46,694 nucleotides of DNA from Bacteroidaceae bacterium (lineage in GTDB: Bacteria; Bacteroidota; Bacteroidia; Bacteroidales; Bacteroidaceae). The translations under genes were made by a program, and so were the position numbers. The stretch is from contig JAFYNL010000049.1 of the NCBI GenBank assembly GCA_017548075.1, positions 1 to 46,694 of the forward strand, in the 5' to 3' direction. Position 1 is the stretch's first letter, and each line of letters begins with the position of its first letter. Below are positions 4,377 through 38,331 of this stretch, piece by piece. Below the pieces are notes generated by a model. It searched no databases. It worked only from the letters and a program-made list of their open reading frames with translations, and was not told the origin of the DNA.

Positions 4377-5663
4377 ATGAACAAAATCACTCTGTTAGTC
4401 CTCGGGCTGTTGCTCACTTTTGCCGACACTTTTGCACAGAAAGAGGTCTCTGGCGTCTATGTAGGCGGCCACATCCGTCGTCAGCGCCCCGGAACCATCA
4501 CGACGCTCCGCAACTCGGGCTTCACCTACGTCATTCTCTTCAATGTTCACGTCACTTCCGACGGCACGCTCACTACCGATGGCGATACAATCTGCTACAA
4601 TGGCGAGTATGTTTTCTATAAAAAACACCCGCATTATCAGGAGGATATTGCGAACCTCAAAACCGAGCCGACCAGCATAAGTCGCGTGGAAATCTGCATC
4701 GGAGGTTGGGGAAATGACGCCTACACCAACATAAAGAACCTCATCAACTCGAAGGGAACCGGTTCAAACACCGTGCTCTACAAGAACTTCAAGGCGCTCA
4801 AGCAAGCTGTGCCCGAGATAGATGCCGTGAACAACGACATTGAGCAGGACTACGACGTAGATACAGGCGCAAAGTTCCACATCATGATGTACAATCTGGG
4901 CTACAAGACGACGCTTGCTCCCTACACCTATAAAAGCTACTGGACTTCGCTCAACGACAAGATTCGCGCCTCGAAGCCGAAAGCTGTGGACCGCGTCATG
5001 ATTCAGTGCTACGACGGCGGCGCAGGCAATGTGAACCAGGTGGGAACTTGGAACTTCACAGGCGTAACAGAGCGCCATGCAGGCCTGATGTACTACTCAA
5101 ACGACTGGAGCGTGGAAAAGAATCTGCAACAGTTCCAGAAATGGAAGGACGACGGCGTGGCTACGGGCGGTTTCGTCTGGGTTTATAACAGCGAGGAATG
5201 GGACCTCAACGCGTGGGCTTCCGGAATGAACCGCATCTACGAAGCTATCACGGTGCCCGAAGACCAAGTGGCAGTGAAATGCTACAGCGAAACCAACTAC
5301 AAAGGCTATTGCGTGGCTCTGCCAGAAGGAGAATTCACCCAGAGTGACCTCGCAGTCTATGGCCTCAAGGCAAAAGACCTCTCATCTCTGGAAATAGTCG
5401 ACGAATATTATCAAGTCCGGCTCTACACCTCCAACAACTGCACAGGAGGGAGGACAATCAAACGTAAATCCTCAAAAACGCTTGGAACCTACAACGACGC
5501 AGTCTGCTCCATCATCATAGAACCGAATCCAACAGCCATAAAGACTATAGACAAAGGACAAAGGACAAAGGACAACGGAATTTACAACCTTGCCGGCCAA
5601 CGCCTCCAAAAGGAGCAGAAAGGCATCAACATCATCAACGGGAAAAAAGTTTTCGTAAAATAA
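4377..5663 (+). CDS. Secreted GH18-like protein with beta/gamma-crystallin-like domain and T9SS-type tail
   Basis: 428 residues. The signal peptide is about residues 1-20 (MNKITLLVLGLLLTFADTFAQ). Residues 25-300 read as a GH18-type TIM barrel: 'SRVEICIGGWG' matches the SxGG strand and 'EIDAVNNDIEQDYD' sits where chitinase-like enzymes have DxxDxDxE. The glutamate is kept, but the middle aspartate is asparagine. Residues about 305-390 ('KCYSETNYKGYCVALPEG', 'VRLYTSNNCTGG') resemble a beta/gamma-crystallin fold, which often binds calcium. A linker encoded by a heptanucleotide repeat leads to the sorting tail 'YNLAGQRLQKEQKGINI...KKVFVK'. Expected location is the cell surface or medium after T9SS export; the substrate may be an N-acetylglucosamine-containing glycan. 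First gene of a three-gene cluster, 3 bp before the CotH gene. Confidence 0.78.
   Translation: MNKITLLVLGLLLTFADTFAQKEVSGVYVGGHIRRQRPGTITTLRNSGFTYVILFNVHVTSDGTLTTDGDTICYNGEYVFYKKHPHYQEDIANLKTEPTSISRVEICIGGWGNDAYTNIKNLINSKGTGSNTVLYKNFKALKQAVPEIDAVNNDIEQDYDVDTGAKFHIMMYNLGYKTTLAPYTYKSYWTSLNDKIRASKPKAVDRVMIQCYDGGAGNVNQVGTWNFTGVTERHAGLMYYSNDWSVEKNLQQFQKWKDDGVATGGFVWVYNSEEWDLNAWASGMNRIYEAITVPEDQVAVKCYSETNYKGYCVALPEGEFTQSDLAVYGLKAKDLSSLEIVDEYYQVRLYTSNNCTGGRTIKRKSSKTLGTYNDAVCSIIIEPNPTAIKTIDKGQRTKDNGIYNLAGQRLQKEQKGINIINGKKVFVK
5543..5577 (+). repeat. Heptanucleotide repeat encoding the linker before the sorting tail
   Basis: Five consecutive 7-mers: GACTATA, GACAAAG three times, then GACAACG. They encode the hydrophilic linker 'DKGQRTKDNG' just before the C-terminal tail of the GH18-like protein. 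The 7-mer is close to the reverse complement of the TGTTGTC unit found in two signal-peptide regions of this window. Confidence 0.8.
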
Positions 5664-16026: not shown

Positions 16027-16190
16027 GTTGGCAAAGTTCACGTGTGAAGATGACAAACTTCACGTGTGAAGATTGCAAAGTTCACGTGTGATGTTTGGCA
16101 ACGTAACGTGTTATGATTGCAAACGTAACGTGTTATGATTGCAAACGTAACTGGGGTTGTTCACCAAGTTAACGTATGGCGTTGGGAAAC
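16027..16190 (+). repeat. 22-bp intergenic tandem repeat, array B (7 units plus a partial one)
   Basis: Units start at 16027 and every 22 bp to 16159, with a 10-bp partial unit at 16181. The first three carry the variant core TTCACGTGTGA, units 4 and 5 carry GTAACGTGTTA, and the last two are degenerate. This is the longest of the five arrays. It begins 53 bp after the DUF4831 stop and its last part is embedded in a hairpin. Confidence 0.9.
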
Positions 16191-16271: not shown

Positions 16272-16279
16272 TATCTTTG
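16272..16279 (+). promoter_or_regulatory. Promoter -7 box for the 1288-residue surface protein unit
   Basis: TATCTTTG at 16272-16279 matches the Bacteroidetes -7 consensus. No good TTTG is seen 19-20 bp upstream. The predicted leader is about 75 bases, AT-rich and without a Shine-Dalgarno sequence, as is common in this phylum. Confidence 0.6.
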
Positions 16280-16357
16280 CCTTGTTTTAAGCTAAAAAAA
16301 CAACTGTATAACAATAAACCTTTTTATTAACCTTTTAATTAAACAAACACATTTTCT

Positions 16358-19300
16358 ATGAGTAAAAAACTACTGAATCTGTGCATGGTAGCGCTGTTGA
16401 GCGTTATTAGCACAGCTGCGTGGGCGCTTGACAAAGTAGATGGCGTTTACCAGATTGGTACGGCGGAAGACCTGAAGGCTTTCGCAGAACTCGTAAACGG
16501 TACTGAGCCTTATGCCAATGCTGTCTTGACAGCCGACATCGACAAAGGCACCGAGAACTACAGAATCGGTCGTGACGGCCAGGACTTCCAGGGAGTCTTC
16601 GACGGCGCAGGTCACACCATTACCTACAACATGACCTTTGAGGAGAATGGTGCAGGCCTCTTCCGCAACGTCGGCGTACATGCCTTAATCCAGAACCTGA
16701 AAGTGCAAGGTACCATTAACACCAACAGTTCCTTCGCTGGCAGTATCGCCGGATGGAACAGTGGTCGCATCCGTGGCTGCTATGCTGATGTCACCATTAA
16801 CAGCAGCAAGTCAGGCGACGCTACCGATGGCGGCTTGGTTGGTATCGCTTATCGCGGCACAGTCATTGAGAACTGTCTGGCAAAGGTTAAAATCTTAGGC
16901 GAAAGCACCCAGAACTGCGGCGGTGTCGTAGGTTGGGCAAACGACAAGATCAACATCATGAACTGCTTGATCGTCAGCGATGGCAGCACCCTCGACGTAT
17001 CTAACGGTGCAAGTGCAAACATCGCACGCAACGGCGGCAATATTAATGTTGTTAACCTTGAGACCTACAACACTAACCCTTACGGAAACCGTCCTGCTGG
17101 TGCCAACTACAACAACTATGTTACTCAGCAGTGGGGCAACAACAATGCAACAACCGTTGTGCCTCTTGCCGACCTCGCTGACGGCCGTATCTGCTATCAG
17201 CTGAACAACGACCAGAGCAAGATCAACTGGGTTCAGAAGATTGGTACAGACCCATTCCCCGTTCCCGCAGCATTTGGCGAAGGACAGGTTTATGCATCTG
17301 GTGCTACAGGCTGTAACGGTCAGGGCGAAGGTCTCACCTACTCTAACGAGGGAACTGTTCAGGCAACAGCTCACACATTCGACAAGTATGGCATCTGCTC
17401 CGTTTGCGGTTGCTACAACTTCAATGGCTTAGAATTTGACGTTGCAGACAATGCCGTTCTCTTTAAGACTGCAGACGATATCTATCTGGCAGAAGGTTGG
17501 AACCGTATCGGCGACGGCTTCAAGCTGAACATGAAGATGGTTGACGACATTGAAGTTCCAGCAGGCGGCTATATTTTCAACACCAGCAACTGGGTGGACG
17601 GTAACTTCGACGGCCAAGGTCACACTCTGACCATCAATATGACCGAAGGTGAGCATGTTGCCTTCATTCCTGAGATGACCGGTAACTTCGAGAACGTCAT
17701 CATGCACGGTTCGATTACAACCAGCGGTTCACGCGCAGGCTCTATCTCTGCAAATGGTCGTATGGCTTTGATTCGTAACGTCTACTCCGACATTAACATC
17801 ACTTCCTCTTTGGTCGGCGACAACACCTCTGGTGGTTTCTGCGGCTGGATGGGTGACAAGGAAAAGAGAGTCGAGAACTGTATCTATGCAGGTACCTTCA
17901 CTTTGCCAGGTGCTGACGGTGGCGCAAGATGTGCACGCGTTGGCGGCTTCAGCGGTTGGGCAGCAACCAAGACATACTTCACCAATTGTGCAGTTCTTGG
18001 CAAATTCATTGGTGCCGGTAACCAGACTCTGGACAACGACACAGAGAACTCCGGTAACATCTCTCGTAACTATGGCAATGTAGTTTCTGAGAATGTGTAT
18101 GTCCTCAATCCTATTGTAGGTAACTCCGTTGGAGACGCTGACAAATACACTTTCTATGGTGAGGTAGTTGAGACTACTGAAACAAATGAGGAAGGCGAAG
18201 AGGTGACCACTAAGATTTATGTACCCAATACCGAAGGCGTTGCCAATGGCGAACTTACATTCTTGCTGAACGGCAAGGAGAGCGGTCTCGACCGTTTCTA
18301 TCAACTGATTGGCACAGACCCCAATCCTCTGCCTGTTGCAAAGGAAGGTGCACTCGTTTACTGCGTTGCTGCAGAATATCGTTGCGACGGCACACCTCTG
18401 GGTGATGACGTAACATACTCTAATTCAGAAGCTAGTGCAAACATTCCTGACCATACGAATGTAGATGGCTGGTGTACCGTCTGCGGCGCTCTCCAGGAAG
18501 ATTACATTACTCCCGTCGATGGCTGGTATGAAATCAGCAACGGCACACAACTCGCATGGTGGAGCAACTACGCAACAAAGTATCCTACCGTTAAGGGACG
18601 TCTGACAGCCGACATCAATATGTCTGGCAAGATGGCTAAATTCAGACCCATTGGTTCACAGGCTAGCTTATTCGTTGGCGAGTTCGACGGTCAAGGTCAC
18701 GTAATCAAGAACTTTGTTCTCACAAGTTCCAGCGACTATCAAGGTCTGTTTGGCGTTATCGGCGGTGGTGCCGTTATCAAGAACTTTGTTCTCGATAGCA
18801 CTTGCTCTATCACGGGTGGTGCATTCTGCGGTGCTATTGGCGGTACCAATGGTGGTGGCGACGTTTACATTTCCAACCTGGGTAACGAAGGTACTGTAAC
18901 AGGTTCTGCACAGAACGCATCTGGCATCCTTGGTGTTGACATGAGTGGTGCTGCAACCCTCCACATCACCAACTGCTACGTAACGGGAGCTGTCAAGGGC
19001 GCTCGTGAATCTGCTACTATCTGCTCTTGGTCAAATTCAGCTTCAGTTATTAAGGACTGCTGGAGTTCTGCAACACTGGAAGGCATTTACGGTACTGGCT
19101 CCTTCACTCGCGGTCAGACTTCTGTTGTCAATTGCTACGAGGTAGATATTGAAGGTATCGATGGTCAGCAATATGGCGACGACCACACTAAGGACAAGAC
19201 CAATCTCATTACAGCAGAGGAAATCGCAAACGGTGCTCTTTGCGCTAAACTGAATACCGTTGACTTCCGTCAGAATGTTGGTGAGGACACACATCCCGTA

Positions 19301-20224
19301 TTCAATCAGACTCATGCTGTCGTGAAGGAAATCACTGAAGCTGGTTATGCTACTATGTACATTCCCGCTGAAGTGACAATTCCCAATGGCGTATCTGTAT
19401 TCACTGGCGAGTTCGAAGAGACTTGGCTGAAGCTGAATCCTGTAGAAGGTACAGTTCCTGCTTTAGAGCCTGTAGTACTGAAGGGTGCTAAGGGTTACTA
19501 CGGCTTCATGCCTGCTGCCGCTGCTACTGAGAGCGTGGATGTGGTCTTCTCTTCGTTAGGCTATGCAAACGAAGCAGTCATTCCAGAAACAGTTGAGGTT
19601 GGGAATCTGACCCTCAACTTTGCTCAAGGTACTAATACTCAAAATCTTGCTCCTAAGTACTACACCGCTAGTGGTGGCAGTGCTCGTATCTATGCAGGCA
19701 ATACTATGAGTATCTCTGCAGGTGGCGCAACTATCACAAAGATTGTGTTTACTCTAAGCAACAACGGTGTGCCCACATTCGAATCGGGTAGCTACGATGC
19801 AGGTTCCTACACATGGGAAGGTGAGGAAACAACTGTAACAGTTGGAGCCTCTGCCCAAGTCCGCATCAAGAGCATGGTTGTTTATTATAGCGTTGCCGGT
19901 GAAGGAACTGCAAATATCGAAGGCAATGTTCTGAAGGGAACTGCTGAAGAGATTGACGCTGCAGGCAAGTACATCCTCGCTCAACCCGAAGGCGAACCCG
20001 TAGGCTTCTACCTCGCAAACGGTGGTAAGATTGCTGCTGGCAAGGCTTATCTGGAAGTTGAAGGAGAAGTTAAGGCATTCCTCTTCAGCGAAGACGATGC
20101 AACTGGCATTGCTAACGTTGAGAAGACTATCGAGAACGGAGCTATCTACAATCTTGCAGGTCAACGCATCAGCAAGATGCAGAAGGGCGTCAACATTATT
20201 AACGGTAAAAAAGTTCTTAAATAA
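16358..20224 (+). CDS. Large beta-helix (GLUG-like) surface protein with T9SS-type tail
   Basis: 1288 residues. Signal peptide about 1-23 (ending TAAWA). Three copies of a right-handed beta-helix-like module follow, each beginning with a 'F(D/E)GxGHxI' turn ('FDGAGHTITYNM', 'FDGQGHTLTINM', 'FDGQGHVIKNFVL') and continuing with GLUG-like strands ('GSIAGWNSGRIRGCYA', 'GGLVGIAYRGTVIENC'). Between modules sit two small Cys knuckles with shared context, 'YGICSVCG' and 'GWCTVCG', possibly metal sites. Near the C-terminus is a module 'AAGKYILAQPEGEPVGFYLA', then the sorting tail 'YNLAGQRISKMQKGVNIING' and KKVLK. It is probably a cell-surface adhesin or glycan-binding protein exported by T9SS; the ligand is unknown. 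Its stop codon overlaps the start of a 51-residue peptide gene. Confidence 0.85.
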   Translation: MSKKLLNLCMVALLSVISTAAWALDKVDGVYQIGTAEDLKAFAELVNGTEPYANAVLTADIDKGTENYRIGRDGQDFQGVFDGAGHTITYNMTFEENGAGLFRNVGVHALIQNLKVQGTINTNSSFAGSIAGWNSGRIRGCYADVTINSSKSGDATDGGLVGIAYRGTVIENCLAKVKILGESTQNCGGVVGWANDKINIMNCLIVSDGSTLDVSNGASANIARNGGNINVVNLETYNTNPYGNRPAGANYNNYVTQQWGNNNATTVVPLADLADGRICYQLNNDQSKINWVQKIGTDPFPVPAAFGEGQVYASGATGCNGQGEGLTYSNEGTVQATAHTFDKYGICSVCGCYNFNGLEFDVADNAVLFKTADDIYLAEGWNRIGDGFKLNMKMVDDIEVPAGGYIFNTSNWVDGNFDGQGHTLTINMTEGEHVAFIPEMTGNFENVIMHGSITTSGSRAGSISANGRMALIRNVYSDINITSSLVGDNTSGGFCGWMGDKEKRVENCIYAGTFTLPGADGGARCARVGGFSGWAATKTYFTNCAVLGKFIGAGNQTLDNDTENSGNISRNYGNVVSENVYVLNPIVGNSVGDADKYTFYGEVVETTETNEEGEEVTTKIYVPNTEGVANGELTFLLNGKESGLDRFYQLIGTDPNPLPVAKEGALVYCVAAEYRCDGTPLGDDVTYSNSEASANIPDHTNVDGWCTVCGALQEDYITPVDGWYEISNGTQLAWWSNYATKYPTVKGRLTADINMSGKMAKFRPIGSQASLFVGEFDGQGHVIKNFVLTSSSDYQGLFGVIGGGAVIKNFVLDSTCSITGGAFCGAIGGTNGGGDVYISNLGNEGTVTGSAQNASGILGVDMSGAATLHITNCYVTGAVKGARESATICSWSNSASVIKDCWSSATLEGIYGTGSFTRGQTSVVNCYEVDIEGIDGQQYGDDHTKDKTNLITAEEIANGALCAKLNTVDFRQNVGEDTHPVFNQTHAVVKEITEAGYATMYIPAEVTIPNGVSVFTGEFEETWLKLNPVEGTVPALEPVVLKGAKGYYGFMPAAAATESVDVVFSSLGYANEAVIPETVEVGNLTLNFAQGTNTQNLAPKYYTASGGSARIYAGNTMSISAGGATITKIVFTLSNNGVPTFESGSYDAGSYTWEGEETTVTVGASAQVRIKSMVVYYSVAGEGTANIEGNVLKGTAEEIDAAGKYILAQPEGEPVGFYLANGGKIAAGKAYLEVEGEVKAFLFSEDDATGIANVEKTIENGAIYNLAGQRISKMQKGVNIINGKKVLK

Positions 20225-20379
20225 TGAAAAAGTATTTTGCTCCTGCAATGCAGGTAAATGAAGCTCAAGCTGCACAGATGCTTGCAGAAAGTCTTATCAT
20301 CAGTAGCGACAAGACTGTCGACGGCAGCCAGGCTCTTACAAAAGAAGACACTGGCTGGGACATCTGGGCTGACGAATAA
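20224..20379 (+). CDS. 51-residue peptide translationally coupled to the surface protein, copy 1
   Basis: Too short for usual gene finders. The start overlaps the upstream stop as TAATG (A at 20224 shared), which favours coupled translation. The sequence opens MKKYFAPAMQVNEAQAAQ, continues QMLAESLIISSDKTVDGSQ and ends in an acidic, tryptophan-rich tail with 'GWDIWADE'. There is no signal peptide or membrane helix. The middle could be an amphipathic helix followed by a flexible Ser/Asp segment. The copy at 23530 shares nearly all residues and a 50-base identical DNA run, so the reading frame is real. A terminator follows 21 bp later. Function is unknown; short proteins with a 'KKYxxP' start and 'WDIW'-like end seem to recur in Bacteroidales, but that is memory, not a search. 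Confidence 0.85.
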   Translation: MKKYFAPAMQVNEAQAAQMLAESLIISSDKTVDGSQALTKEDTGWDIWADE

Positions 20380-20399
20380 TCATTAAGCACTCTATTCAG

Positions 20400-20433
20400 G
20401 AGGCAGTTCTCGCAAAGAGGGCTGCCTCTTTTT
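20400..20433 (+). terminator. Rho-independent terminator after peptide copy 1
   Basis: Stem GAGGCAG (20400-20406) pairs with CTGCCTC (20422-20428), followed directly by TTTTTG. It closes the first surface protein-peptide transcription unit. Confidence 0.85.
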
Positions 20434-20451
20434 GTTGGAGACGCTAAGGTC

Positions 20452-20517
20452 GTTTGCAAAGTTAACGTGGGTAGTTGCCCAACTTAACACGTGTAGTTGG
20501 ACAAGTTAACGTGGGTA
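20452..20517 (+). repeat. 22-bp intergenic tandem repeat, array C (3 units)
   Basis: Units start at 20452, 20474 and 20496. Units 1 and 3 end in AACGTGGGTA rather than AACGTGTTA; unit 2 has AACACGTGTA. Orientation is the same as in the other arrays. It lies between the terminator of peptide copy 1 and the promoter of the next unit. Confidence 0.88.
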
Positions 20518-20548
20518 GTTTTTGAATTACATTTTTCTTGGTTTTTTG

Positions 20549-20579
20549 TTTGCCATATTATAAATAATGTGTAACTTTG
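20549..20579 (+). promoter_or_regulatory. Promoter of the 960-residue surface protein unit
   Basis: The -33 box TTTG is at 20549-20552 and the -7 box TAACTTTG at 20572-20579, spaced by 19 bp. The leader is about 65 bases, AT-rich and without a Shine-Dalgarno sequence. Confidence 0.75.
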
Positions 20580-20647
20580 TGGCGTAATATGTCGTTAAAT
20601 CTAACAACAAACCTATAAACCAACTTATTCCTAAAACTAAATCTATT

Positions 20648-23530
20648 ATGAAACAAACATTACTAAGTCTTTTGAGGTCGCGAGCCATGATGCTCGTAGC
20701 CTTGATGTGTGCGCCTTTCATTGGTGCATGGGCAGACAGCGAAACCATCACATTTGGTTCGTTAACTCCGGCGCTGGAGAACGGAGTGCAATACTCTGAT
20801 CCTTTTGGCACTAACATCAGCGTTACTTTTGGTGGCGGTGGCAACAATGGTAAGTACTACAACACAGGCAATGGCATCCGCATTTATAGCAATGGAACCA
20901 TTACAATCACGGCTAATGACAATACCATTACTGCAATCCAAACAACTTTCTCAGAAGCAGCTTATGCTCCTGCATCTGCTGATGTTTGGACAAGCGATGG
21001 TGAAGGAACAGGAACTTCCGGAGCATCTGCATCTTGGGAAGGCTCTGCTACTAAAGTTGTGATGACTTATCCCTCAAGCAGTGGACAATGGCGCCTTCAG
21101 GCCATCAAAGTCACCTATGTTACAGACGGCCCTCCTGCTTGTGAAACTCCCACCTTCTCTCCCGAAGCTGGAACTTTCCTTACAGCTCAAAGCGTGGAAA
21201 TCAGTTCGGAAACAGAAGGCGCAACTATCTACTATACAGTTGACGGCTCAGAACCTACCGAAAAGAGCCCAGTATACACAGAAGCCATTTCTGTAAACGA
21301 GACAACTACAATCAAGGCCATTGCCGCGAAGGAAGAATATAGCAATAGTGCTGTTGCCAGCGCAACCTATAAGATTGTTGCTTTCGAACATGCAGGAACT
21401 GCAGAAGACCCATACTCTGTGGCTGATGCTCGCATTGCCATTGATACAAATACTGGCGTTACTGGTGTCTATGCAACAGGTATCGTCTCCAAGATTGTGA
21501 CGGCTTACAATTCTCAATTCGGCAATATCTCCTATAATATTTCTGCCGACGGCTCTACCGATGGCGAACAACTCCAAGCTTTCCGTGGTAAAGGTAAGGA
21601 TGGAGAATGGTTCACCTCCAACTATGATGTTATGGTGGGCGATGTTGTGGTTGTTTATGGTAATCTGACGAAATATGGTTCAACTTACGAGTTCGCTGCC
21701 GACAATCAGCTTGTCAGCCAGGTGCGCAAGCCTGTTGAGGTAACTGTTGGCGAGAGCGGCTATGCCACAATGTATCTGCCTTATGCAGTTGAATTGGGTG
21801 GTGTACTGCCTTCATCAGATCTGCCCACACCTGTTGGCTCTTGGACATTCGACGATCCCGAGAACCCATTGGCAGGCACAGGCACAGCAACTCTCACACC
21901 ATCTACACATAGCACATCTAAGCCCACTTGGCTCGAGAGAAAGGAAAGCCTTGAAGCTGCTGGCATCCAAGTAATTGACGGTGGTCTGTATCTTCCCAAA
22001 GGCTCAAGCCTGAATATGGATACCAATAATGGTGCAACAGGTTTCGACAAATATACTGTTATGTTCGACATCTGTGCAGACGATATGACTGGCTACAATC
22101 CTCTTTGGCAGAATAGTATTACCGACAGCAAGGACGGCAGCCTCTTCATCAAGAACGGACAGATAGGTCTGGGCGGCTCTCTCGGCTACAATGGCGACTT
22201 CAAAGCTGGTCAGTGGTATCGTGTCGTATTGGTAATCGACACTCCCAACAAAGCAGCCCTTTATGTTGACGGAGAGCTGATAAGTTCTTGTGAGCACACA
22301 GACTCTTACAACAAGCACTGGTTGCTGTCAGATCCTGGTGCAGTCTTCTTTGCTGACGAAGATGGTGAGGAGAAAGACATCAAGGTTACCGGTCTCAGCT
22401 TCTGGGATGTTCCCTTTACCCTTAGCCAGGTTGCCGCACTCGGAACTGTTGATGCAACGCCTGAGGTTGAAGTGGTTAAAGTGCCCGAAACTGTTGGTAC
22501 TTGGACCTTCGACGATGCTGAAAATCTGACAGCAGGCACAGGCGTTGCCACGATGGAAGCCACTTCTGGCGTTGCTGTTAACGAAGACGGTAGCGTCACG
22601 GTTGGTGTAGGTGACAACCTGAAGATAACCACCAATCTCCCAGAGGCAAGCCTTAACAGCTATACTTTGATGATGGATGTCAAGTTCCCCGATGTTGCCC
22701 GCTACACTTCTATCATCCAGACCGACCTCAGTAACGTTAACGACGCAGCCCTGTTCGTTCACAACGGACAAATCGGTATCAATTCAGGTGGCTTATACTA
22801 TCACGGTTCACTTGTAAACGACACATGGTATCGTATTGTATTAGTTGTTGACAACTTGGTTATGTCGGAATACGTTGATGGTTTGTTTATTGGCAAGGGT
22901 TCTTCGCAGCTTGATAAGTGGGGCATTAATGGAGGTGCCTTCTTCCTCTTCGAGGATGAGGATAATGAGAACGACGAAGGCATTGCCACAGCAACTGAGA
23001 TTCGTCTTTGGGATAAGGCTCTGACTCCCGCTCAGGTTGCAGCCCTTGGCGCTATTGGTTCAGAACTGAAGGCATTCACTGGTGTGGTTAACGGTGAATA
23101 CTTGACTCTGAATGAAGTTCCGGGAACTATTCCCGCATTCACTCCTGTGGTACTCAAGGCTGCTCCAAACACCTATGTCTTCGAAATGGCCGAGAATGTT
23201 GCTGCTATTGAGGAGAACGACCTAAAGGGCACACTCGAGGACATCGATGCTGCCGGCAAGTATGTTCTTGCTCAGCCTGAAGGCGAACCTGTTGGTTTCT
23301 ACTTGGCAGAAACTGGCACCATTAAGGCAGGTAAGGCTTATCTGGAAAGTGCTAGTGGCGTGAAGGCATTCTACTTCAATGGTGACAGCGCAACTGGCAT
23401 CGAGAACGTGAACTCTGCCCTCGACGCTAACCACAACTTCGACGGAGCTATCTACAACCTCTCTGGTCAGCGCATCAGCAAGATGCAGAAGGGCATTAAC
23501 ATTATTAACGGTAAGAAGATTCTGAAATAA
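20648..23530 (+). CDS. Large multidomain surface protein with two LamG-like domains and T9SS-type tail
   Basis: 960 residues. Signal peptide about 1-29 (ending GAWA). Then a beta-rich domain (30-155); a chitobiase-C-terminal-like domain (160-245, 'ATIYYTVDGSEPTEKSPVY'); an OB-fold-like domain as seen in DUF6359-type proteins (250-365, 'DVMVGDVVVVYGNLTKYG'); and two concanavalin/LamG-like domains of the same lineage, 'VGSWTFDDPENPLAGTGTAT' near 395 and 'VGTWTFDDAENLTAGTGVAT' near 615. The C-terminal module ('DAAGKYVLAQPEGEPVGFYLA') and tail (YNLSGQRISKMQKGINI...KKILK) are close copies of those in the 1288-residue protein. The LamG-like domains suggest glycan or protein binding at the cell surface. 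The stop overlaps the start of peptide copy 2. Confidence 0.84.
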   Translation: MKQTLLSLLRSRAMMLVALMCAPFIGAWADSETITFGSLTPALENGVQYSDPFGTNISVTFGGGGNNGKYYNTGNGIRIYSNGTITITANDNTITAIQTTFSEAAYAPASADVWTSDGEGTGTSGASASWEGSATKVVMTYPSSSGQWRLQAIKVTYVTDGPPACETPTFSPEAGTFLTAQSVEISSETEGATIYYTVDGSEPTEKSPVYTEAISVNETTTIKAIAAKEEYSNSAVASATYKIVAFEHAGTAEDPYSVADARIAIDTNTGVTGVYATGIVSKIVTAYNSQFGNISYNISADGSTDGEQLQAFRGKGKDGEWFTSNYDVMVGDVVVVYGNLTKYGSTYEFAADNQLVSQVRKPVEVTVGESGYATMYLPYAVELGGVLPSSDLPTPVGSWTFDDPENPLAGTGTATLTPSTHSTSKPTWLERKESLEAAGIQVIDGGLYLPKGSSLNMDTNNGATGFDKYTVMFDICADDMTGYNPLWQNSITDSKDGSLFIKNGQIGLGGSLGYNGDFKAGQWYRVVLVIDTPNKAALYVDGELISSCEHTDSYNKHWLLSDPGAVFFADEDGEEKDIKVTGLSFWDVPFTLSQVAALGTVDATPEVEVVKVPETVGTWTFDDAENLTAGTGVATMEATSGVAVNEDGSVTVGVGDNLKITTNLPEASLNSYTLMMDVKFPDVARYTSIIQTDLSNVNDAALFVHNGQIGINSGGLYYHGSLVNDTWYRIVLVVDNLVMSEYVDGLFIGKGSSQLDKWGINGGAFFLFEDEDNENDEGIATATEIRLWDKALTPAQVAALGAIGSELKAFTGVVNGEYLTLNEVPGTIPAFTPVVLKAAPNTYVFEMAENVAAIEENDLKGTLEDIDAAGKYVLAQPEGEPVGFYLAETGTIKAGKAYLESASGVKAFYFNGDSATGIENVNSALDANHNFDGAIYNLSGQRISKMQKGINIINGKKILK

Positions 23531-23682
23531 TGAAAAAATATTTTGCTCCTGCAATGCAGGTTAACGAGGCTCAAACTGCACAAATGCTTGCAGAAAGTCT
23601 TATCATCAGTAGCGACAAGACTGTCGACGGCAGTCAGGCTCTCACAAAAGAAGACAACTCTTGGGACATTTGGGGAGAATAA
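23530..23682 (+). CDS. 50-residue peptide translationally coupled to the surface protein, copy 2
   Basis: Same arrangement as copy 1: TAATG overlap with the upstream stop at 23528-23530. It differs from copy 1 only in one Ala-to-Thr change near residue 16 and in the last eight or so residues (DNSWDIWGE instead of DTGWDIWADE). Bases 23584-23633 are identical to 20278-20327, including third codon positions, which points to recent duplication or gene conversion, or to a constraint on the RNA itself. No signal peptide. The CCTGCaatGCAGG mini-hairpin near the start is also kept in both copies. Function unknown. A terminator follows 37 bp after the stop. Confidence 0.85.
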   Translation: MKKYFAPAMQVNEAQTAQMLAESLIISSDKTVDGSQALTKEDNSWDIWGE

Positions 23683-23719
23683 TTTCCTGCTAAATAGTCT
23701 ACAAAAGTTATAGACATTT

Positions 23720-23760
23720 ACCCCTGACCGGCTTAGCTAAGGTCAGGGGTATTTGTTTTT
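23720..23760 (+). terminator. Rho-independent terminator after peptide copy 2
   Basis: Perfect 10-bp stem ACCCCTGACC (23720-23729) with GGTCAGGGGT (23741-23750), 11-base loop, then ATTTGTTTTT. Confidence 0.88.
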
Positions 23761-30489: not shown

Positions 30490-33400
30490 ATGAGCGCGCG
30501 AAAAATCATATTGGCTCTTTGTGTGTTGGCAAGCATAAATGTGTTGCTGGCAATGAGTCATTCCTATATGTTAGAGGCTTCGGAACAGGCCGCTCCAGCC
30601 GATACAGTTTCCGATGGGAAGCCGCGCTATTCCGTTCGCAAGACTGGTACTCAGGATACAAAAGACCTCAAGAAAAAGACTGCCGACCTGAAAGAACCAG
30701 ACAACTTGAAGACCGAGGTTATCTACGATGAGAAAGACAACACATATACTATAGGTACTTCTTTCTCTGGCTCTGAAGGCTCTGGCGCAGGACAAGGCAC
30801 AAGAGGCGGCAGTAGTACAGGAACTAGAGGTTCCAGTTCTAGTGGTGGAAGAAGTGGAGGTAGAAGTCAGAACACTTCGAGTGCATCTTCGACTGGTGCT
30901 GCTGGAGCCTCATCAGGCAGCATTATTCCTGGCAGAGCAGGCTTTACGCTTGGTACAGCCACAAGTTTCTTGAACGCTCCTGTCTTGATGTCGCCTGAAG
31001 AATATCAGGAATGGTCGTTGCAGAATAGCATGCAACAATACTGGCGTCAAAAGAATGCAGAGGCTTTCGAGGCAGAAGGCAAAAACAAGTTCGACTTCAC
31101 AGATATGCACTTTAGCCTCGGACCTGCAGAAAAGATATTTGGTCCTGGCGGCGTTCAAATCAAGACTCAAGGAAGTGCAGAACTTAAGGTGGGCGTCAAC
31201 TCGAAGAAGGTAAATAACCCAGCTCTTGCAGCTTCTCGCCGTAAAACCATAGGTTTCGACTTCGACGAAAAGATTAATCTGAGCCTCAATGGTAAGGTGG
31301 GCGACAAGATTAACATGAACCTGAATTACAACACACAAGCCACCTTCGACTATGATGCCCAGAACCTCAAACTGAAATATGATGGTAAGGAGGACGAAAT
31401 TGTTAAGCTCATCGAAGCAGGTAACGTTTCTTTCCCCAGCAATATCAGTCTTGTTCCTGGTGTCAGCAGTCTTTTCGGCCTTCGTACAGATGTGCAGTTC
31501 GGCAAGTTGAAGATTCAGTCAGTCGTCAGCCAAAAGAAGAGTTCTAGCAGTAGTGTCAGCAGTAAAGGCGGCTCGCAGACAACCAACTTCGAGTTCAGCG
31601 CTACAAATTATGAAGAAAATCGACACTTTTTCCTCTCCCACTTCTTCCGTGAAAGATACGACAAGAACATGGAGAGTTTGCCCACAATCTCAAGCGGAAT
31701 CAATATCAAACGCGTAGAAATCTGGGTGACTAACAAGAGTGGTAGGACGGAGAACAATCGTAACATTATTGCCTTGGCTGACTTGGGTGAGCCATCATAC
31801 ATTTATAATACTGACCTTTGGACAAACACAGGCATCAACGTTCCCAGCAACCGCTCTAATAGTGAGTACGATCGTCTCATAAATGATTATCCTGATGCTC
31901 GCGACATTTCACAAGCAACCACCATTCTCGACGGGATATATAACTTCCAAGGCAGTATTGATTACGAAAAGTTGCAAGCCGCCAGAAAGCTTTCCAGCAG
32001 CGAGTATACAGTCAACAATGCTTTGGGTTATGTTAGCCTTTCAAGCACTCTGCAAGTGGATGACGTTCTTGCCGTTGCCTATGAATACACCTATATGGGT
32101 ACAACCTATCAGGTTGGTGAGTTCGCAAGCGACCTTACAGACAACTCGAAAGCACTCTTTGTTAAGCTGCTGAAAGGCACCTCCGGAAGTCCCAAGTTGC
32201 CGACTTGGCGCTTGATGATGAAAAACGTCTATTACCTTGGCACTCAAAAGGTATTGGCAGACAAGTTCCGTCTGGACATCAAGTACCAAAGCGACTCAAC
32301 TGGCGTCTATCTCAGTTATCTTCCTGAAGAGCAGTTCAAGAATACCATCCTCTTGAGGGCACTTAATCTCGACCGCTTGGATGCCAAGAACAACCCGCAT
32401 CCCAATGGTCAGTTCGACTATGTAGAAGGCTACACTATCAGCAAAGGCCGTATCATCTTCCCTGTTGCAGAGCCTTTTGGTGAACATCTGGCGAAATGGA
32501 TAGGCAATCCTGCTTTGGCAGATAAATACTGTTTCCGAGAACTCTATGACAGTACCAAGACCGTTGCCAAGCAGATATCCGAGCATGACAAATTCTTGTT
32601 AACAGGTCGCTACAAAGGCACTAATGCAGGAGAAATTGACTTGGGCGTAACGAACATTGCAAGAGGCTCAGTCGTCGTAACTGCTGGAGGTGTCACACTA
32701 ACAGAGAACTCCGACTATACGGTCGATTACAACATGGGCCGTGTGACCATCATCAACCAGAGCCTCATCGATGCAGGCACCAATATCAGCGCTTCCGTAG
32801 AGAGCAACGACACATATGGTATGCAGCGAAAGACGATGCTCGGCTTGAACATGGACTATGCAATCAACAAGAACTTCACTGTGGGCGGCACGCTGATGTA
32901 CTTGAGTGAGCAACCGCTTACTACAAAGGTCAGCATGGGTAACGAACCTTTAAAGAACACACTTTGGGGATTGCATGTAAGCTGGAAGAAAGAAAGTCAG
33001 TGGCTCACTAACATCATCGACAAACTGCCTCTCATTCAATGTACTCAACCCAGCCTTATCTCTTTCAATGGTGAGTTTGCTCAACTCATTGCAGGACAGA
33101 ACCATAGTGTTCAGGGAGATGCCTCTTATCTCGACGACTTCGAGAGCAGTAGCATTAAGAGCAGTTTGACGCAACCCACATATTGGACTATGTCGAGTAC
33201 GCCAAGTATGTTCGCCGAAAGCAAGATGACCGCTAATGCCGCATACGGCTACAACAGAGCTTTGCTTGCATGGTACTATGTAGATCCCATCTTCACTCGC
33301 AGAAGCAGTACCCTGACACCTAGTCACATCAAGAGTGACCTTGACCAACTCTCTAACCATTATGTTCGTGAAGTCTATGAACGCGAACTTTATCCACAGA

Positions 33401-36400
33401 AATCACAGAACACCTATACAAGTTCAACTGGACTCAATGTCCTGAACCTCGCTTACTATCCTAAAGAACGAGGAGCTTACAACCTCACAACCGATGTTGA
33501 TCAGAACGGTCATCTTACTCATCCGGAAGAAAGATGGGGCGGTATGATGCGTAAACTCGACAACACAGACTTCGAGGCTCAAAACATCGAGTACATCGAA
33601 TTCTGGATGATGGACCCGTTCATCTACAAGCGTAACCTCCCTGGCAATCATGGTGGCGACCTCTATTTCAACTTAGGTGAGGTTTCTGAAGATATCCTGA
33701 AGGACGGCAAGAAGTACTTCGAGAGCGGAATGCCTGTAGACGGTAATCCACAATACTTTACTGAAGGCTATTGGGGACGCATCCCTAATAGTAGTAGCGT
33801 GACCTATGCCTTCAACAACGAAGCTGGAGCAAGAGCTAAACAAGACGTTGGTCTTAATGGTCTGAATGATGATGAAGAACGTGAGTTCGGATTATATGCC
33901 AACTACCTTCAGCAGATACAAAGCAAAGTTTCGCCAATTGTCTTCGACAGCATCTATAACGACCCTGCCAACGACAACTACCACTACTATCGCGGCTCGG
34001 ATTTCGACCAACTTAAAATGTCCATTCTGAATCGCTACAAGCGCATCAACATGCCTCAAGGCAACAGTGCCGACTCTGACACAAGACCAGAGAGCTACGA
34101 AACTGCATGGAAGGTAACTCCAGATGTAGAAGACATTAACCAAGACTACACCCTCAACGAATACGAGAAGTATTATCAGTATCATGTAAGCATTCGTCCA
34201 GAAGATATGGTTGTGGGACGCAACCACATAGCCGACAAGCGAGTGGCAAGTGTCAAACTTCGTAACGGTAACACTGAAGAATGTACCTGGTATCTTTTCC
34301 GAGTTCCCTTGACAGAATACGAAAGTAAGGAAGGTAACATCAACGACTTCACAAGTATCCGTTTCATGCGTCTCTTTATGACGGGCTTTGAGGAAGAAAC
34401 CATCTTGCGTCTTGCCACACTCGACCTCGTTCAAGGCGACTGGCGTATGTATCAGCAACCTCTTTACAATGGAGATGTTCCTTCTAGTGGAGGTGGCACA
34501 TTGGAGATTAGTACAGTTTGTATCGAAGAGAACAACGACAAGCAACCTGTTAACTATGTCCTACCTCCAGGAATCACTCGAATCACTGACCCTTCGCAAT
34601 CTCAACTTGTAGAAGCCAACGAACAGGCTATGTGTATGGTGGCTCGCAATCTTGGTGGAAGTGAAGCAAAGGCTGTTTATAAGAACTGCAACTACGATAT
34701 GCGTCAGTACAAGCATTTGCAAATGTATGTTCACGCCAATGCCCTCGCAGAGAATATCACCTCTACTACCGACGGAGAATGCAGCGTCTTCATACGTCTT
34801 GGATCTGATTACAAGAGTAACTACTACGAATACGAAGTGCCTTTGAAACTTACTCCAGAAGGTTATTATGATACTTATAGTGCTCAAGGTTGCTTGGCAG
34901 TTTGGCCTGCAGAAAATATGGTCGACATCAACTTCGACCTCTTTACATCGCTAAAGAAGCAAAGAAATGCTCAAGCAAGCATTGGCGTGGCATCCATGAA
35001 CCGTCTCTTCTCGACTTACGATGAGGACCATCCCAACAATCGCATATCCATCATGGGTAATCCTACACTTGGTGAGGTCAAGACAATTATGATTGGCATT
35101 CGTAACAATAGTGGTAGGACGAAGAGCATTGAGGTATGGGCTAACGAATTGCGACTTCAAGAGTTCAGTAACTCAGGTGGTTGGGCAGCGCAAGGAAGCC
35201 TTCAAGTACAGGTCAGTGACTTAGGTTCAGTAAATGCGACTGCCAAGATGATAACTTCCGGCTTTGGTGGCATCGAACAAAGTGTGGCACAGAGAAAGAA
35301 CGAGGACAATCTCAACTACTCCATCTCTACACACTTCGACCTTGGTCGTCTCCTTCCTGAGAAGGCTAAACTTACGGTTCCGATGTACTATAGTTATAGT
35401 AAGGAAAAGATATCGCCTAAGTATAATCCCTTCGATACGGATATGCTTCTCGACGATGCTCTCGATGCCCTTGCCAATGAGCAACAGCGCGATTCTCTGC
35501 GAAGCCTGACTAATCATACAGAAACCAATAAGAATCTCTCCTTTACAGGCATTAGGCTTAACATCAGCACTCGTAAGCATCCCATGCCATACGACCCTGC
35601 TAACTTTACTTTCGGTTACAGCCGCTCCTCTCAATTCACAGAGGGACAGACAACTGTCTATGAGCGTGAGCTCAACTGGAAAGCCAATATGAACTACTCC
35701 TGGAGCCCGAACTGGAAGACTTGGGAGCCTTTCAAGAACCTCAAAGGAAAGAGCAAGTGGTTGGACATCATCAAAGCACAGAACCTTGCCTATGCTCCGC
35801 AAAGCATCACGTTCTCAACCGACATGAACCGTAACTACTACGAACTTCAGGAACGTGACCTCGAGAATCCTAGTGACCTCTCTGCTTTGCCAGCCACATT
35901 CAGTCAAAACTGGACTTGGAATCGCAACTTCTCACTAAAGTGGGACATCTTCAAAGCCTTGCACTTCTCCTTCCAAAGTGGCACAAAGGCTGAGATTGAA
36001 GAGCCTTATACACAAATCAACAAAGACCTTTATCCTGACCGTTACGAGGCCTGGAAAGATTCTGTGAAGTGGAGTCTTCGGAACTTCGGCCGTCCTCTCG
36101 ATTATCATCAGAACACACAACTCAGTTATAAGTTGCCTTTGGAAAAGATTCCTGTCTTTGATTGGGCTTCCGTCGATGGTGCTTATACCGCCAACTATAC
36201 TTGGAAACGCGGCGCAGAAAGAGTTGGTCGTCCGTCTCTTGGCAATACTATTAATTCTCAGCGCACAGTTAACATCAACGGCAGACTCGACTTGGAGAAA
36301 CTCTACAATCACAGCAAATTCCTTCAGGAAGCTAACAAGCGCTTCTCTGCTGCCAATGCTAAGGCTGGTGCAAATCAGAAACGTGCTGAAAAAGAGAAGG

Positions 36401-38331
36401 AAGAGAAAGCAAAGAAAGCTGCTAAAGAAAAGGAGAGAGACGCTCGCCAGAGAGCAGAGCAAGAGTCGATGAATACTGGAGAGTCTGTAGATAGCATCCT
36501 TGCAAGACAGCAGAATGCGGGTGGTAAGCAAGGTAATGCAGCTGGTGTAACGAACAAGAAAAAGCCAGAGAACAAAGGCTTCGTGCAAGAGATAACTCTC
36601 TATCCTGACTCCGACCTTGTTATTGCTCACGGACAAAAGTCTAAGCGCGTTCGTGTTACTGCTCGCGACAGTAGCGGCTTTGCCTACAACATTAAATATA
36701 AGAAGGTTGACGAAAATAGCATCCGCATTGTACGGACTCCAGTTGATACAACTAGTGTGCGCTTGAATGTCATTGCATTGCCCAAAGCATCAGAGCAGAA
36801 GTGGTATGGTTTGGCACAAACTGCAGCCCGTTTCCTGATGATGATACGCAATGTCAGCATCACTTATCGCAATACCTACAACCTTGCTGTACCTGGCTTC
36901 CTGCCCGATGTTGGCGATATGCTAGGACAAAGGAAACTTGGCGGCATGTTCACACCTGGACTTGACTTTGGTTTTGGTCTTGTAGATGACTCTTATCTCA
37001 ACAAAGCAAAAGGGCGTGGGTGGCTGCTAGGAAATGATAGTGTGGCTACTCCAGCTACCATTGCAAAGACAGAAGATGTGCAAGTGAAGATGAGTTTGGA
37101 GCCCTTCACAGACCTCAAGATTGACCTCAACATGAGTCGTACGGACAACCGCAACAAGAGCATCCAATATATGTATGGAACTCCTCCAACACATAGCGGT
37201 TCGTTCAACATGACAACTATCAGCATTGGCTCTGCTTTCGCCAGCATCGGTTCTGCAGGAAACGGCTATTACAGCAAGACGTTCCAAAAGTTCCAAGACA
37301 ATATCGATATTTATCAGAAGCGTGTAGAAGACCAATATCGCGGCATTCGCTATCCTGCAGCAACAGGCATGAACGGCACTTTCAATCCTGAGAATGGAAC
37401 AGTCAACAAGTATAGTGCTGATGTTATGGTGCCTGCTTTCCTCAATGCTTATACAGGAACCAGTTCGCTCGACATCTTCCCATCACTTCTTAAGATGTTG
37501 CCAAACTGGAGCATCAACTACAAAGGTTTGAGCAACCTGCCTTGGCTGCGCGACCACTTCAAGAGCATCAACCTCACTCACGCCTACAAGAGTGTTTATG
37601 CAGTCGGCTCTTACCACTCCTACAGTTCTTGGGTTGAGTGCATGGGCACAGGCGGACTTGGCTTCATTCAGAACACTACAACTGGAGGTTATGTTCCCAA
37701 TAGTCTTCTCGACGTAAGCACAGTCAGCATCAACGAGAGTTTCTCGCCACTCATCGGCATCAATACTACCTTCAACAATAACATGACGCTCAAGTTGGAA
37801 TATAAGACCACACGAGTCCTCAACCTGAGTATGACCAGCGCTCAACTCACGGAAACAGGCTCGAAAGACTTCGTTCTTGGTTGGGGTTATAAGATAAATG
37901 ATTTCAACCTGAGCAGCATCTTCCGCGGAAAGAAAGCAAGCGAACAAGTGGCTAAGAATACTAAGACGAAAGGCAAATCGCCTAACTCAATGAACAATGA
38001 CGACCTAGGAGAGACAAGCAGAGGCGGCACTACAAGTGGTCGAGGCAACTCTGGAAAGTCAAAGATTGCTCACGATTTGAACTTGCGTTTCGACTTCAGT
38101 ATCCGCAATCAAAGCGCCATTAAGCGCGACTTGCAGAGCAATCTCTGCGAAGCTACCAGCGGCAACAAGGCCTTCAAGACTAGTGCGCAAGTCGATTATA
38201 CAATGAGCAGAATGGTGACACTCAGCCTTTTCTACGACCGTCAACGCTCTGCCCCACTCCTTTCAAGCAGCAGCTATCCTACCATTACTCAGGACTTCGG
38301 AATGACCATGAAGTTCTCTCTCACAAGGTAA
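30490..38331 (+). CDS. sprA: Cell surface protein SprA (Sov), outer-membrane translocon of the type IX secretion system
   Basis: 2613 residues, longer than the roughly 2400-2500 usual in the family. Signal sequence about 1-22. Residues ~95-150 are an unusual Ser/Gly-rich stretch ('GSSTGTRGSSSSGGRSGG'). Recognisable SprA segments include 'GPGGVQIKTQGSAELKVG', 'KINMNLNYNTQATFDYD', 'GNVSFPSNISLVPGVSSLFGL', 'SYLDDFESS' and the C-terminal strand 'ITQDFGMTMKFSLTR'. The protein forms a very large single-chain beta-barrel through which T9SS cargo crosses the outer membrane. A Lys/Glu/Ala-rich charged insert lies at about 1950-2000. Start choice: an AAGGAG at 30461 is 24 bases upstream and precedes a 4-codon frame, so the start is not firmly fixed. 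Four putative cargo genes are in this window. Confidence 0.96.
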   Translation: MSARKIILALCVLASINVLLAMSHSYMLEASEQAAPADTVSDGKPRYSVRKTGTQDTKDLKKKTADLKEPDNLKTEVIYDEKDNTYTIGTSFSGSEGSGAGQGTRGGSSTGTRGSSSSGGRSGGRSQNTSSASSTGAAGASSGSIIPGRAGFTLGTATSFLNAPVLMSPEEYQEWSLQNSMQQYWRQKNAEAFEAEGKNKFDFTDMHFSLGPAEKIFGPGGVQIKTQGSAELKVGVNSKKVNNPALAASRRKTIGFDFDEKINLSLNGKVGDKINMNLNYNTQATFDYDAQNLKLKYDGKEDEIVKLIEAGNVSFPSNISLVPGVSSLFGLRTDVQFGKLKIQSVVSQKKSSSSSVSSKGGSQTTNFEFSATNYEENRHFFLSHFFRERYDKNMESLPTISSGINIKRVEIWVTNKSGRTENNRNIIALADLGEPSYIYNTDLWTNTGINVPSNRSNSEYDRLINDYPDARDISQATTILDGIYNFQGSIDYEKLQAARKLSSSEYTVNNALGYVSLSSTLQVDDVLAVAYEYTYMGTTYQVGEFASDLTDNSKALFVKLLKGTSGSPKLPTWRLMMKNVYYLGTQKVLADKFRLDIKYQSDSTGVYLSYLPEEQFKNTILLRALNLDRLDAKNNPHPNGQFDYVEGYTISKGRIIFPVAEPFGEHLAKWIGNPALADKYCFRELYDSTKTVAKQISEHDKFLLTGRYKGTNAGEIDLGVTNIARGSVVVTAGGVTLTENSDYTVDYNMGRVTIINQSLIDAGTNISASVESNDTYGMQRKTMLGLNMDYAINKNFTVGGTLMYLSEQPLTTKVSMGNEPLKNTLWGLHVSWKKESQWLTNIIDKLPLIQCTQPSLISFNGEFAQLIAGQNHSVQGDASYLDDFESSSIKSSLTQPTYWTMSSTPSMFAESKMTANAAYGYNRALLAWYYVDPIFTRRSSTLTPSHIKSDLDQLSNHYVREVYERELYPQKSQNTYTSSTGLNVLNLAYYPKERGAYNLTTDVDQNGHLTHPEERWGGMMRKLDNTDFEAQNIEYIEFWMMDPFIYKRNLPGNHGGDLYFNLGEVSEDILKDGKKYFESGMPVDGNPQYFTEGYWGRIPNSSSVTYAFNNEAGARAKQDVGLNGLNDDEEREFGLYANYLQQIQSKVSPIVFDSIYNDPANDNYHYYRGSDFDQLKMSILNRYKRINMPQGNSADSDTRPESYETAWKVTPDVEDINQDYTLNEYEKYYQYHVSIRPEDMVVGRNHIADKRVASVKLRNGNTEECTWYLFRVPLTEYESKEGNINDFTSIRFMRLFMTGFEEETILRLATLDLVQGDWRMYQQPLYNGDVPSSGGGTLEISTVCIEENNDKQPVNYVLPPGITRITDPSQSQLVEANEQAMCMVARNLGGSEAKAVYKNCNYDMRQYKHLQMYVHANALAENITSTTDGECSVFIRLGSDYKSNYYEYEVPLKLTPEGYYDTYSAQGCLAVWPAENMVDINFDLFTSLKKQRNAQASIGVASMNRLFSTYDEDHPNNRISIMGNPTLGEVKTIMIGIRNNSGRTKSIEVWANELRLQEFSNSGGWAAQGSLQVQVSDLGSVNATAKMITSGFGGIEQSVAQRKNEDNLNYSISTHFDLGRLLPEKAKLTVPMYYSYSKEKISPKYNPFDTDMLLDDALDALANEQQRDSLRSLTNHTETNKNLSFTGIRLNISTRKHPMPYDPANFTFGYSRSSQFTEGQTTVYERELNWKANMNYSWSPNWKTWEPFKNLKGKSKWLDIIKAQNLAYAPQSITFSTDMNRNYYELQERDLENPSDLSALPATFSQNWTWNRNFSLKWDIFKALHFSFQSGTKAEIEEPYTQINKDLYPDRYEAWKDSVKWSLRNFGRPLDYHQNTQLSYKLPLEKIPVFDWASVDGAYTANYTWKRGAERVGRPSLGNTINSQRTVNINGRLDLEKLYNHSKFLQEANKRFSAANAKAGANQKRAEKEKEEKAKKAAKEKERDARQRAEQESMNTGESVDSILARQQNAGGKQGNAAGVTNKKKPENKGFVQEITLYPDSDLVIAHGQKSKRVRVTARDSSGFAYNIKYKKVDENSIRIVRTPVDTTSVRLNVIALPKASEQKWYGLAQTAARFLMMIRNVSITYRNTYNLAVPGFLPDVGDMLGQRKLGGMFTPGLDFGFGLVDDSYLNKAKGRGWLLGNDSVATPATIAKTEDVQVKMSLEPFTDLKIDLNMSRTDNRNKSIQYMYGTPPTHSGSFNMTTISIGSAFASIGSAGNGYYSKTFQKFQDNIDIYQKRVEDQYRGIRYPAATGMNGTFNPENGTVNKYSADVMVPAFLNAYTGTSSLDIFPSLLKMLPNWSINYKGLSNLPWLRDHFKSINLTHAYKSVYAVGSYHSYSSWVECMGTGGLGFIQNTTTGGYVPNSLLDVSTVSINESFSPLIGINTTFNNNMTLKLEYKTTRVLNLSMTSAQLTETGSKDFVLGWGYKINDFNLSSIFRGKKASEQVAKNTKTKGKSPNSMNNDDLGETSRGGTTSGRGNSGKSKIAHDLNLRFDFSIRNQSAIKRDLQSNLCEATSGNKAFKTSAQVDYTMSRMVTLSLFYDRQRSAPLLSSSSYPTITQDFGMTMKFSLTR

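Follow-up and report, generated by a model that had tools for sequence, protein, structure and literature searches.

The window analysed here, a stretch of 46,694 nucleotides from a Bacteroidaceae bacterium, carries two tandem, co-directional units on its forward strand, each composed of a gene for a secreted protein and a frame of 50-51 codons. In the first unit, a protein of 1288 amino acids (aa) is encoded at 16358-20224 and a peptide of 51 aa at 20224-20379; the second encodes a protein of 960 aa (20648-23530) and a peptide of 50 aa (23530-23682). The list of open reading frames confirms all four frames at the positions given in the original prediction, and the TAATG stop/start overlap that it described can be read at both cargo/peptide junctions. 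It had also assigned a promoter and a terminator to each unit. A TAnnTTTG motif, which we take to be the Bacteroidota promoter element, is found upstream of both units, at 16272..16279 and 20572..20579, starting 86 and 76 nt before the ATG of the respective cargo gene; a sigma-70 promoter scan of the window was uninformative. The first terminator (20398..20430) was picked up by a scan, in which terminator-like sites overall are about as frequent as in shuffled sequence (4 versus 3.0). The second (23720..23760) is a terminator-like hairpin, ACCCCTGACC...GGTCAGGGGT, followed by the T-rich run ATTTGTTTTT, which is plain by eye and has an 11-nt loop, larger than the limit of the scan. Runs of short repeats ('gcaaagttcacgtgtgaag / aacgtaacgtgttatgattgca') are seen by eye between genes at 16029-16160 and 20452-20525, and the same type of repeat also follows the peptide in L004, a further unit of tail gene and peptide in this genome; these runs look like an interspersed repeat family.

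Both secreted proteins start with a Sec-type signal sequence, as judged by eye, and end in a C-terminal tail located by a tail search at 20135..20221 (NGAIYNLAGQRISKMQKGVNIINGKKVLK) and 23441..23527, respectively. Protein 2 matches Pfam domains of the chitobiase C-terminal-like and LamG-like types; in protein 1, GLUG repeats are the only matches and stay below the Pfam cut-off. The peptides are near-identical, as had been claimed (92% identity over 49 residues), and the DNA identity profile of the two units agrees with the statement that the cargos resemble each other only in their 3' part: identity stays at 0.18-0.45 until 300 nt ahead of the peptide, is 0.68-0.70 from that point, reaches 0.88-0.97 across the final 60 nt of the cargo gene and most of the peptide, and then drops.

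The C-terminal tail and its genomic context

The tails of the paired genes are of the type GxIYNLxGQR...GKKVLK, and no tail model of Pfam or NCBIfam matches that of either window cargo. Machinery of the type IX secretion system (T9SS) is encoded in the same genome, namely SprA/Sov, the outer-membrane channel, found by a search of the window (30490..38331), and a Plug domain at G000:C21. Among 61 genomes of the family, the tail is present in 41 of the 42 with an SprA match and in 2 of the 19 without, and this co-occurrence lends indirect support to the tail being a sorting signal for type IX secretion. The tail, earlier described as T9SS-like, thus tracks SprA and is left unmatched by the curated models. 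One genome, G014, which is listed as 100% complete, has 85 tail matches, 18 peptides and a Plug domain (Pfam), yet no SprA match; this is probably a gap, and otherwise a striking loss.

In the genome of the window, 88 tail matches are found at E<=1. Of the 74 listed down to E=0.12, 73 were checked for the peptide, which lies within about 110 nt behind 19 of them and is lacking behind the other 54, so that it accompanies a subset of the tailed proteins. Two further tail matches lie in the window itself, at 5577-5654 and 9906-9974; they are followed by long genes and by no peptide.

A peptide family behind tailed genes

The peptide is unnamed in Pfam, NCBIfam and PHROGs, which assign it no family; peptide 1 obtains weak sub-threshold matches only. 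In its own genome (2.66 Mb in 66 contigs, 88% complete), 12 peptide relatives are detected by BLAST at E<=1 and 21 with a wide profile built from 27 peptides. All 21 stand directly behind a co-directional tail gene, 19 of them within the set of 73 tails and two behind a tail variant on contig C26.

Beyond this genome, 187 loci were examined. Eighty come from named genomes, which are MAGs labelled Bacteroidaceae, Prevotellaceae or Bacteroidales, many of ruminant origin, and these loci were fetched by peptide match alone; the genus (19 genomes) and the family (61 genomes) supplied further loci. At least 300 nt of upstream sequence was required, which removed L080, L247 and L248 and left 184 loci, 171 of them with a tail gene (named genomes 78/79; family 50/58 and 20/24; genus 23/23). 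Once 7 duplicates are taken out, 177 distinct loci remain, and in 164 of them a tail gene ends no more than 320 nt before the peptide, far more often than chance would allow; the check proposed with the original prediction, namely that peptide and adjacency to sorting-tail genes be conserved in relatives, is thereby passed. Left out were loci in which the frame was missed or cut by a contig end (L043, L045, L046, L051, L193, L194, L209, L217, L218) and copies from the own genome (L055, L067, L192); of the 146 wide-profile matches outside the own genome, 84 were examined. At 13 of the 177 loci no tail match lies upstream (L125, L202, L204, L214, L216, L251, L264, L269, L273, L282, L283, L287, L288); as read by eye, L202, L214 and L216 show other tail-like ends, and L273, L282, L283 and L287 precede a lipoprotein.

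The gap from tail to peptide ranges from -4 to 190 nt and is at most 130 nt in 156 of the 164 pairs. Cargo and peptide overlap in only 16 of the 164, and coupling through TAATG, which holds for both window units, is therefore a special case and not a general feature of the family. By eye, C/G-rich hairpin-forming stretches (e.g. ccttccccttttaggggagggg) are present in the 70-90 nt gaps of L005, L006 and L008, in the place where other units have TAATG. A tandem pair of peptide matches stands behind a single tail gene at L285 (G004:C69:4615-4949). In an order-wide search of 148 genomes, the wide profile found the peptide in the window's own and in one other, G174, which belongs to a different family and in which 2 of 5 matches contain internal stops; outside the family, the peptide is therefore rare or too diverged for this profile.

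A conserved leader and a variable core

An ungapped alignment of 99 peptides less than 50% identical to each other, anchored on the Tyr of YxxP, reveals a conserved leader of the form KK-x-Y-x-x-P-x-hydrophobic ... [ML][IL][AC]-x-S, in which the Ser follows the Tyr 19 residues on. Ser occupies this position in 83 of the 99 peptides, Ala or Cys position +17 in 75, and Met, Leu, Ile or Val position +5 (the L of YxxPxL) in 69; positions +15 and +16 are hydrophobic as well. The invariance of Tyr and Pro in this set is not evidence, because these residues chose and aligned it; both are invariant in the 12/12 own-genome copies found by BLAST, and YxxP is present in 187/187 loci, most of which were found with profiles or patterns that partly contain Y and P. 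Information falls from 3.26 bits at the Ser to 0.72 at the next position. The core that follows is of variable length (median 31 residues), negatively charged in 96/99 peptides, and carries a Trp or Phe within its last nine residues in 96/99. Drawn from this pattern of conservation, the boundaries in the window would place the leader of peptide 1 at 20224..20292 (23 codons, Y4xxP7 ... A21-E-S23) and its acidic core, which contains WDIW, at 20293..20379 (28 codons plus stop), and the leader and core of peptide 2 at 23530..23598 and 23599..23682 (with stop). Across the 99 non-redundant peptides, the arrangement of a RiPP precursor is found, a short peptide with a conserved leader and a variable core. 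Thioether chemistry was set aside as a candidate modification because the cores are nearly devoid of Cys (0.07% of core residues).

The peptides are under purifying selection, leader and core alike. Between the two window peptides, 11 synonymous changes (28.3 sites) stand against 6 non-synonymous ones (121.7 sites). A comparison of 28 pairs of relatives, with each sequence used once, gives a pN/pS of 0.27 (leader 0.22, core 0.30). These values bear on a rival idea, in which the peptide has some unrelated function as a small intracellular protein and is copied along with the tail as a 3' module. The DNA shared by the two window units would suit such copying, being a block of the last 300 nt of the cargo gene and the peptide that then ends. 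We nevertheless regard it as very unlikely, given the selection acting on the core and the finding that peptides only 21-76% identical to that of the window (rows of the wide alignment) keep their position behind tails across several genera.

In the available text of PMC12710340, YxxP is described as the sequence of lasso peptides that is bound by their recognition proteins (RREs), and W/Y/LxxP as that for several PqqD-like groups, and the available text of PMC10368454 gives the position of YxxPxL in lasso leaders as -17 to -12, for a kinase-bearing system. If cleavage follows the Ser, the Tyr of the present family is at -20.

The PqqD/HprK/S26 cassette

A PqqD protein (PF05402) is encoded in 55 of the 61 family genomes and in a single detected copy in the window's own genome, where overlapping genes encode, in this order, an HprK-like protein, an S24/S26-type peptidase and PqqD, followed by a T9SS Plug gene. 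The own PqqD scores 55.8 bits against PF05402 (cut-off 23.4), and the peptidase matches PF00717 marginally (24.0 bits, cut-off 23.3). In the peptidase, GxSMxP and HR are invariant in 9/9 sequences, and its structural model (pLDDT 84) resembles LexA and UmuD first and signal peptidases next. The HprK-like protein has no Pfam match; its model (pLDDT 92) has a fold like those of PEP carboxykinase and HPr kinase, from which we would guess that it may be a kinase. In the family sample, 56 of 58 HprK hits have a PqqD no more than 3 kb away, and these come from 47 of the 61 genomes. With purpose-built HMMs, HprK, S26 and PqqD genes are found side by side in 23 of 27 cassette loci and a Plug-like gene within 2.2 kb in 8 of the 27; each of the five family-sample genomes that belong to the window's genus contributes a locus with a Plug-like gene near the cassette, and Pfam T9SS_plug was confirmed in 4/4 Plug-like genes tested.

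The solved structures most closely related to the PqqD profile are TfuB1 (6jx3, E 6.6e-7) and TbiB1 (5v1u, E 0.007), both of which we take to be lasso RREs. A lasso PqqD model matches 9 of 10 cassette PqqDs at E<=0.01, the own copy reaching 26 bits against a cut-off of 70. No lasso cyclase, B2-type domain or other core-modifying enzyme was found among 27 cassette-locus proteins put to Pfam, which are part of the cassette neighbours, and the core may only be trimmed.

Linkage and co-occurrence of peptide and cassette

In two relatives without an SprA match, G028 and G043, a member of the peptide family stands near PqqD and before a lipoprotein gene; the G043 lipoprotein is fimbrillin-like (PF13149), and that of G028 has no Pfam match. 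In a sample of the G028 genus, the peptide is present in 17 of 38 genomes, and SprA is absent in 3/3 tested. A peptide lies within 7 kb of PqqD, at 3.2-6.9 kb, in 15 of these 17 genomes, against a chance expectation of 0.15 that overstates the surprise because all 17 share one genus and ancestry; the exceptions are G220, in which PqqD is absent, and G245, in which it is on another contig. In 21/21 loci of this genus, a gene with a lipobox, as assigned with a permissive pattern, begins no more than 260 nt behind the peptide. The linkage takes two spacings, 3.2-3.8 kb and 5.4-6.9 kb, with different lipoproteins.

Across the 61 family genomes, the peptide tracks HprK (33/47 genomes with versus 2/14 without, P=0.00037) and SprA (32/42 with versus 3/19 without, Fisher P=1.4e-5), counts that overstate independence because the genomes are related. 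PqqD presence alone shows no association with the peptide (P=0.39). Eight genomes with both SprA and HprK have no detected peptide, and in G065, which has 8 peptides, PqqD and HprK were not detected, maybe owing to an assembly gap. None of the 21 peptides of the own genome shares the cassette contig (C21), and peptides of genomes with T9SS are seldom near the cassette; the link in these genomes is accordingly drawn from the motif, the co-occurrence and the arrangement in relatives.

These observations bear on the two roles that the original prediction had offered for the peptide. One was a cytoplasmic export chaperone or quality-control factor, made after the cargo and holding its tail or the Sec-bound precursor. 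The lack of a signal sequence in the peptide and its constant neighbourhood with tail genes would be in keeping with this role, as would the near-identity of the peptides despite the differences between their cargos, which a factor that binds the tail would lead one to expect, and the correlation between peptide and tail similarity within the genome (r=0.33, P=0.011; 18 of 21 pairs). The last could also result from copying of the 3' module, and a chaperone has no need of a fixed leader from YxxP to AxS after which conservation breaks off. Occurrence only with T9SS cargo, as expected of a cytoplasmic T9SS chaperone, is not what is found. The chaperone role lacks positive support because cargo and peptide seldom overlap (16/164), most examined tails of the own genome have no peptide (54/73) and relatives stand before lipobox genes in a genus where SprA was absent in 3/3 genomes tested; we consider it unlikely. 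The other role, a precursor peptide, fits the division into leader and core, the YxxP motif and the PqqD/HprK/S26 cassette.

A precursor could also be served by enzymes other than PqqD, HprK and S26, with the linkage in the G028 genus reflecting one inherited surface-polysaccharide cluster. The test of linkage indeed covers a single genus, the G028 cluster around the peptide includes a sugar transferase gene (PF02397) and, by eye, Wza- and Wzc-like genes, and PqqD presence on its own does not go with the peptide. We think this unlikely, as the linkage is seen at both spacings with different lipoproteins and the PqqD most resembles lasso recognition proteins, a kind reported to bind YxxP in the available text of PMC12710340.

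Proposed processing of the peptides and comparison with known systems

On the balance of these sequence data, we find it probable, though well short of certain, that the peptides are RiPP-like precursors, dispersed in the genome, recognised and probably trimmed in trans, and co-made with surface proteins. The genome's PqqD-type RRE would bind the leader in trans through YxxP, and the S26-type peptidase of the neighbouring gene would cut behind the A-x-S site; the HprK-like enzyme encoded in the same run of genes would perhaps phosphorylate the peptide. Once matured, the acidic peptide might act at the surface with the protein from the same transcript, or report on it; in relatives without detected T9SS, the family stands before lipoprotein genes near PqqD. 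Beyond a small, co-directional gene whose product has a leader-like segment, all of this is our inference. As a tentative extension, it is possible that Bacteroidaceae have a peptide maturation pathway that spans the genome and is tied to the secretion of surface proteins. A single PqqD/HprK/S26 cassette, Plug-adjacent in some lineages, would then serve dozens of leader peptides, every one of them produced together with a T9SS cargo or a lipoprotein, and the matured acidic, Trp-rich peptides would be partners, attachments or signals of these surface proteins. The proposed processing suggests substrates for a cassette of so far unassigned purpose and would tie both type IX secretion and surface lipoproteins to a system of RiPP type; if it is true, a small processed peptide accompanies many of the tailed surface proteins made by Prevotella-like bacteria of the rumen and gut. 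Searches of open-licence PMC papers returned nothing joining T9SS with PqqD, fimbrillin with PqqD, or T9SS/C-terminal domains with precursor peptides and Prevotella, and the available text of a survey of Bacteroidales RiPPs (PMC10352776) mentions PqqD once, in a reference title.

The closest parallels are with lasso peptide systems, including those with a split B1 (a PqqD-like RRE), an HPr kinase and a nucleotidyltransferase. The YxxPx(hydrophobic) leader motif is common to both, the closest solved relatives of the cassette PqqD are TfuB1 and TbiB1, and an HprK-like protein and, in some relatives, NTP_transf_5 are also encoded at cassette loci. Genes for HPr kinase, PqqD and nucleotidyltransferase are known in lasso clusters from the available text of PMC7533575. 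In contrast to lasso systems, which are defined by an asparagine-synthetase-like cyclase and a B2 peptidase along with the RRE, neither the cyclase nor a B2-type domain is present among the 27 cassette-locus proteins, where an S26-type peptidase is found in place, and 21 precursors, scattered behind surface-protein genes, would depend on one PqqD in the own genome. The HPr-rel-A and SynChlorMet (ScmC/ScmD) systems of NCBIfam likewise combine an HprK-related protein with PqqD, but matches to them are weak, the own-genome copies scoring far below the curated cut-offs (27 versus 125 and 24 versus 200).

In multi-precursor RiPPs such as the prochlorosins, one enzyme set serves numerous scattered precursors whose leader is conserved and whose cores vary; unlike these, the present peptides have cores nearly free of Cys, and each precursor is tied to a surface-protein gene. 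The cassette peptidase shares the GxSMxP serine and the HR histidine with S26B-type peptidases, such as the archaeal/ER signal peptidase and the nickel superoxide dismutase maturation protease, although its NCBIfam matches are below the curated cut-offs, and the peptide is its presumed substrate. A small protein with a signal-like start, whose L312 copy belongs to no Pfam family, precedes the HprK-S26-PqqD cassette at L312 7500-7937, L318 7087-7587 and L319 12415-12855.
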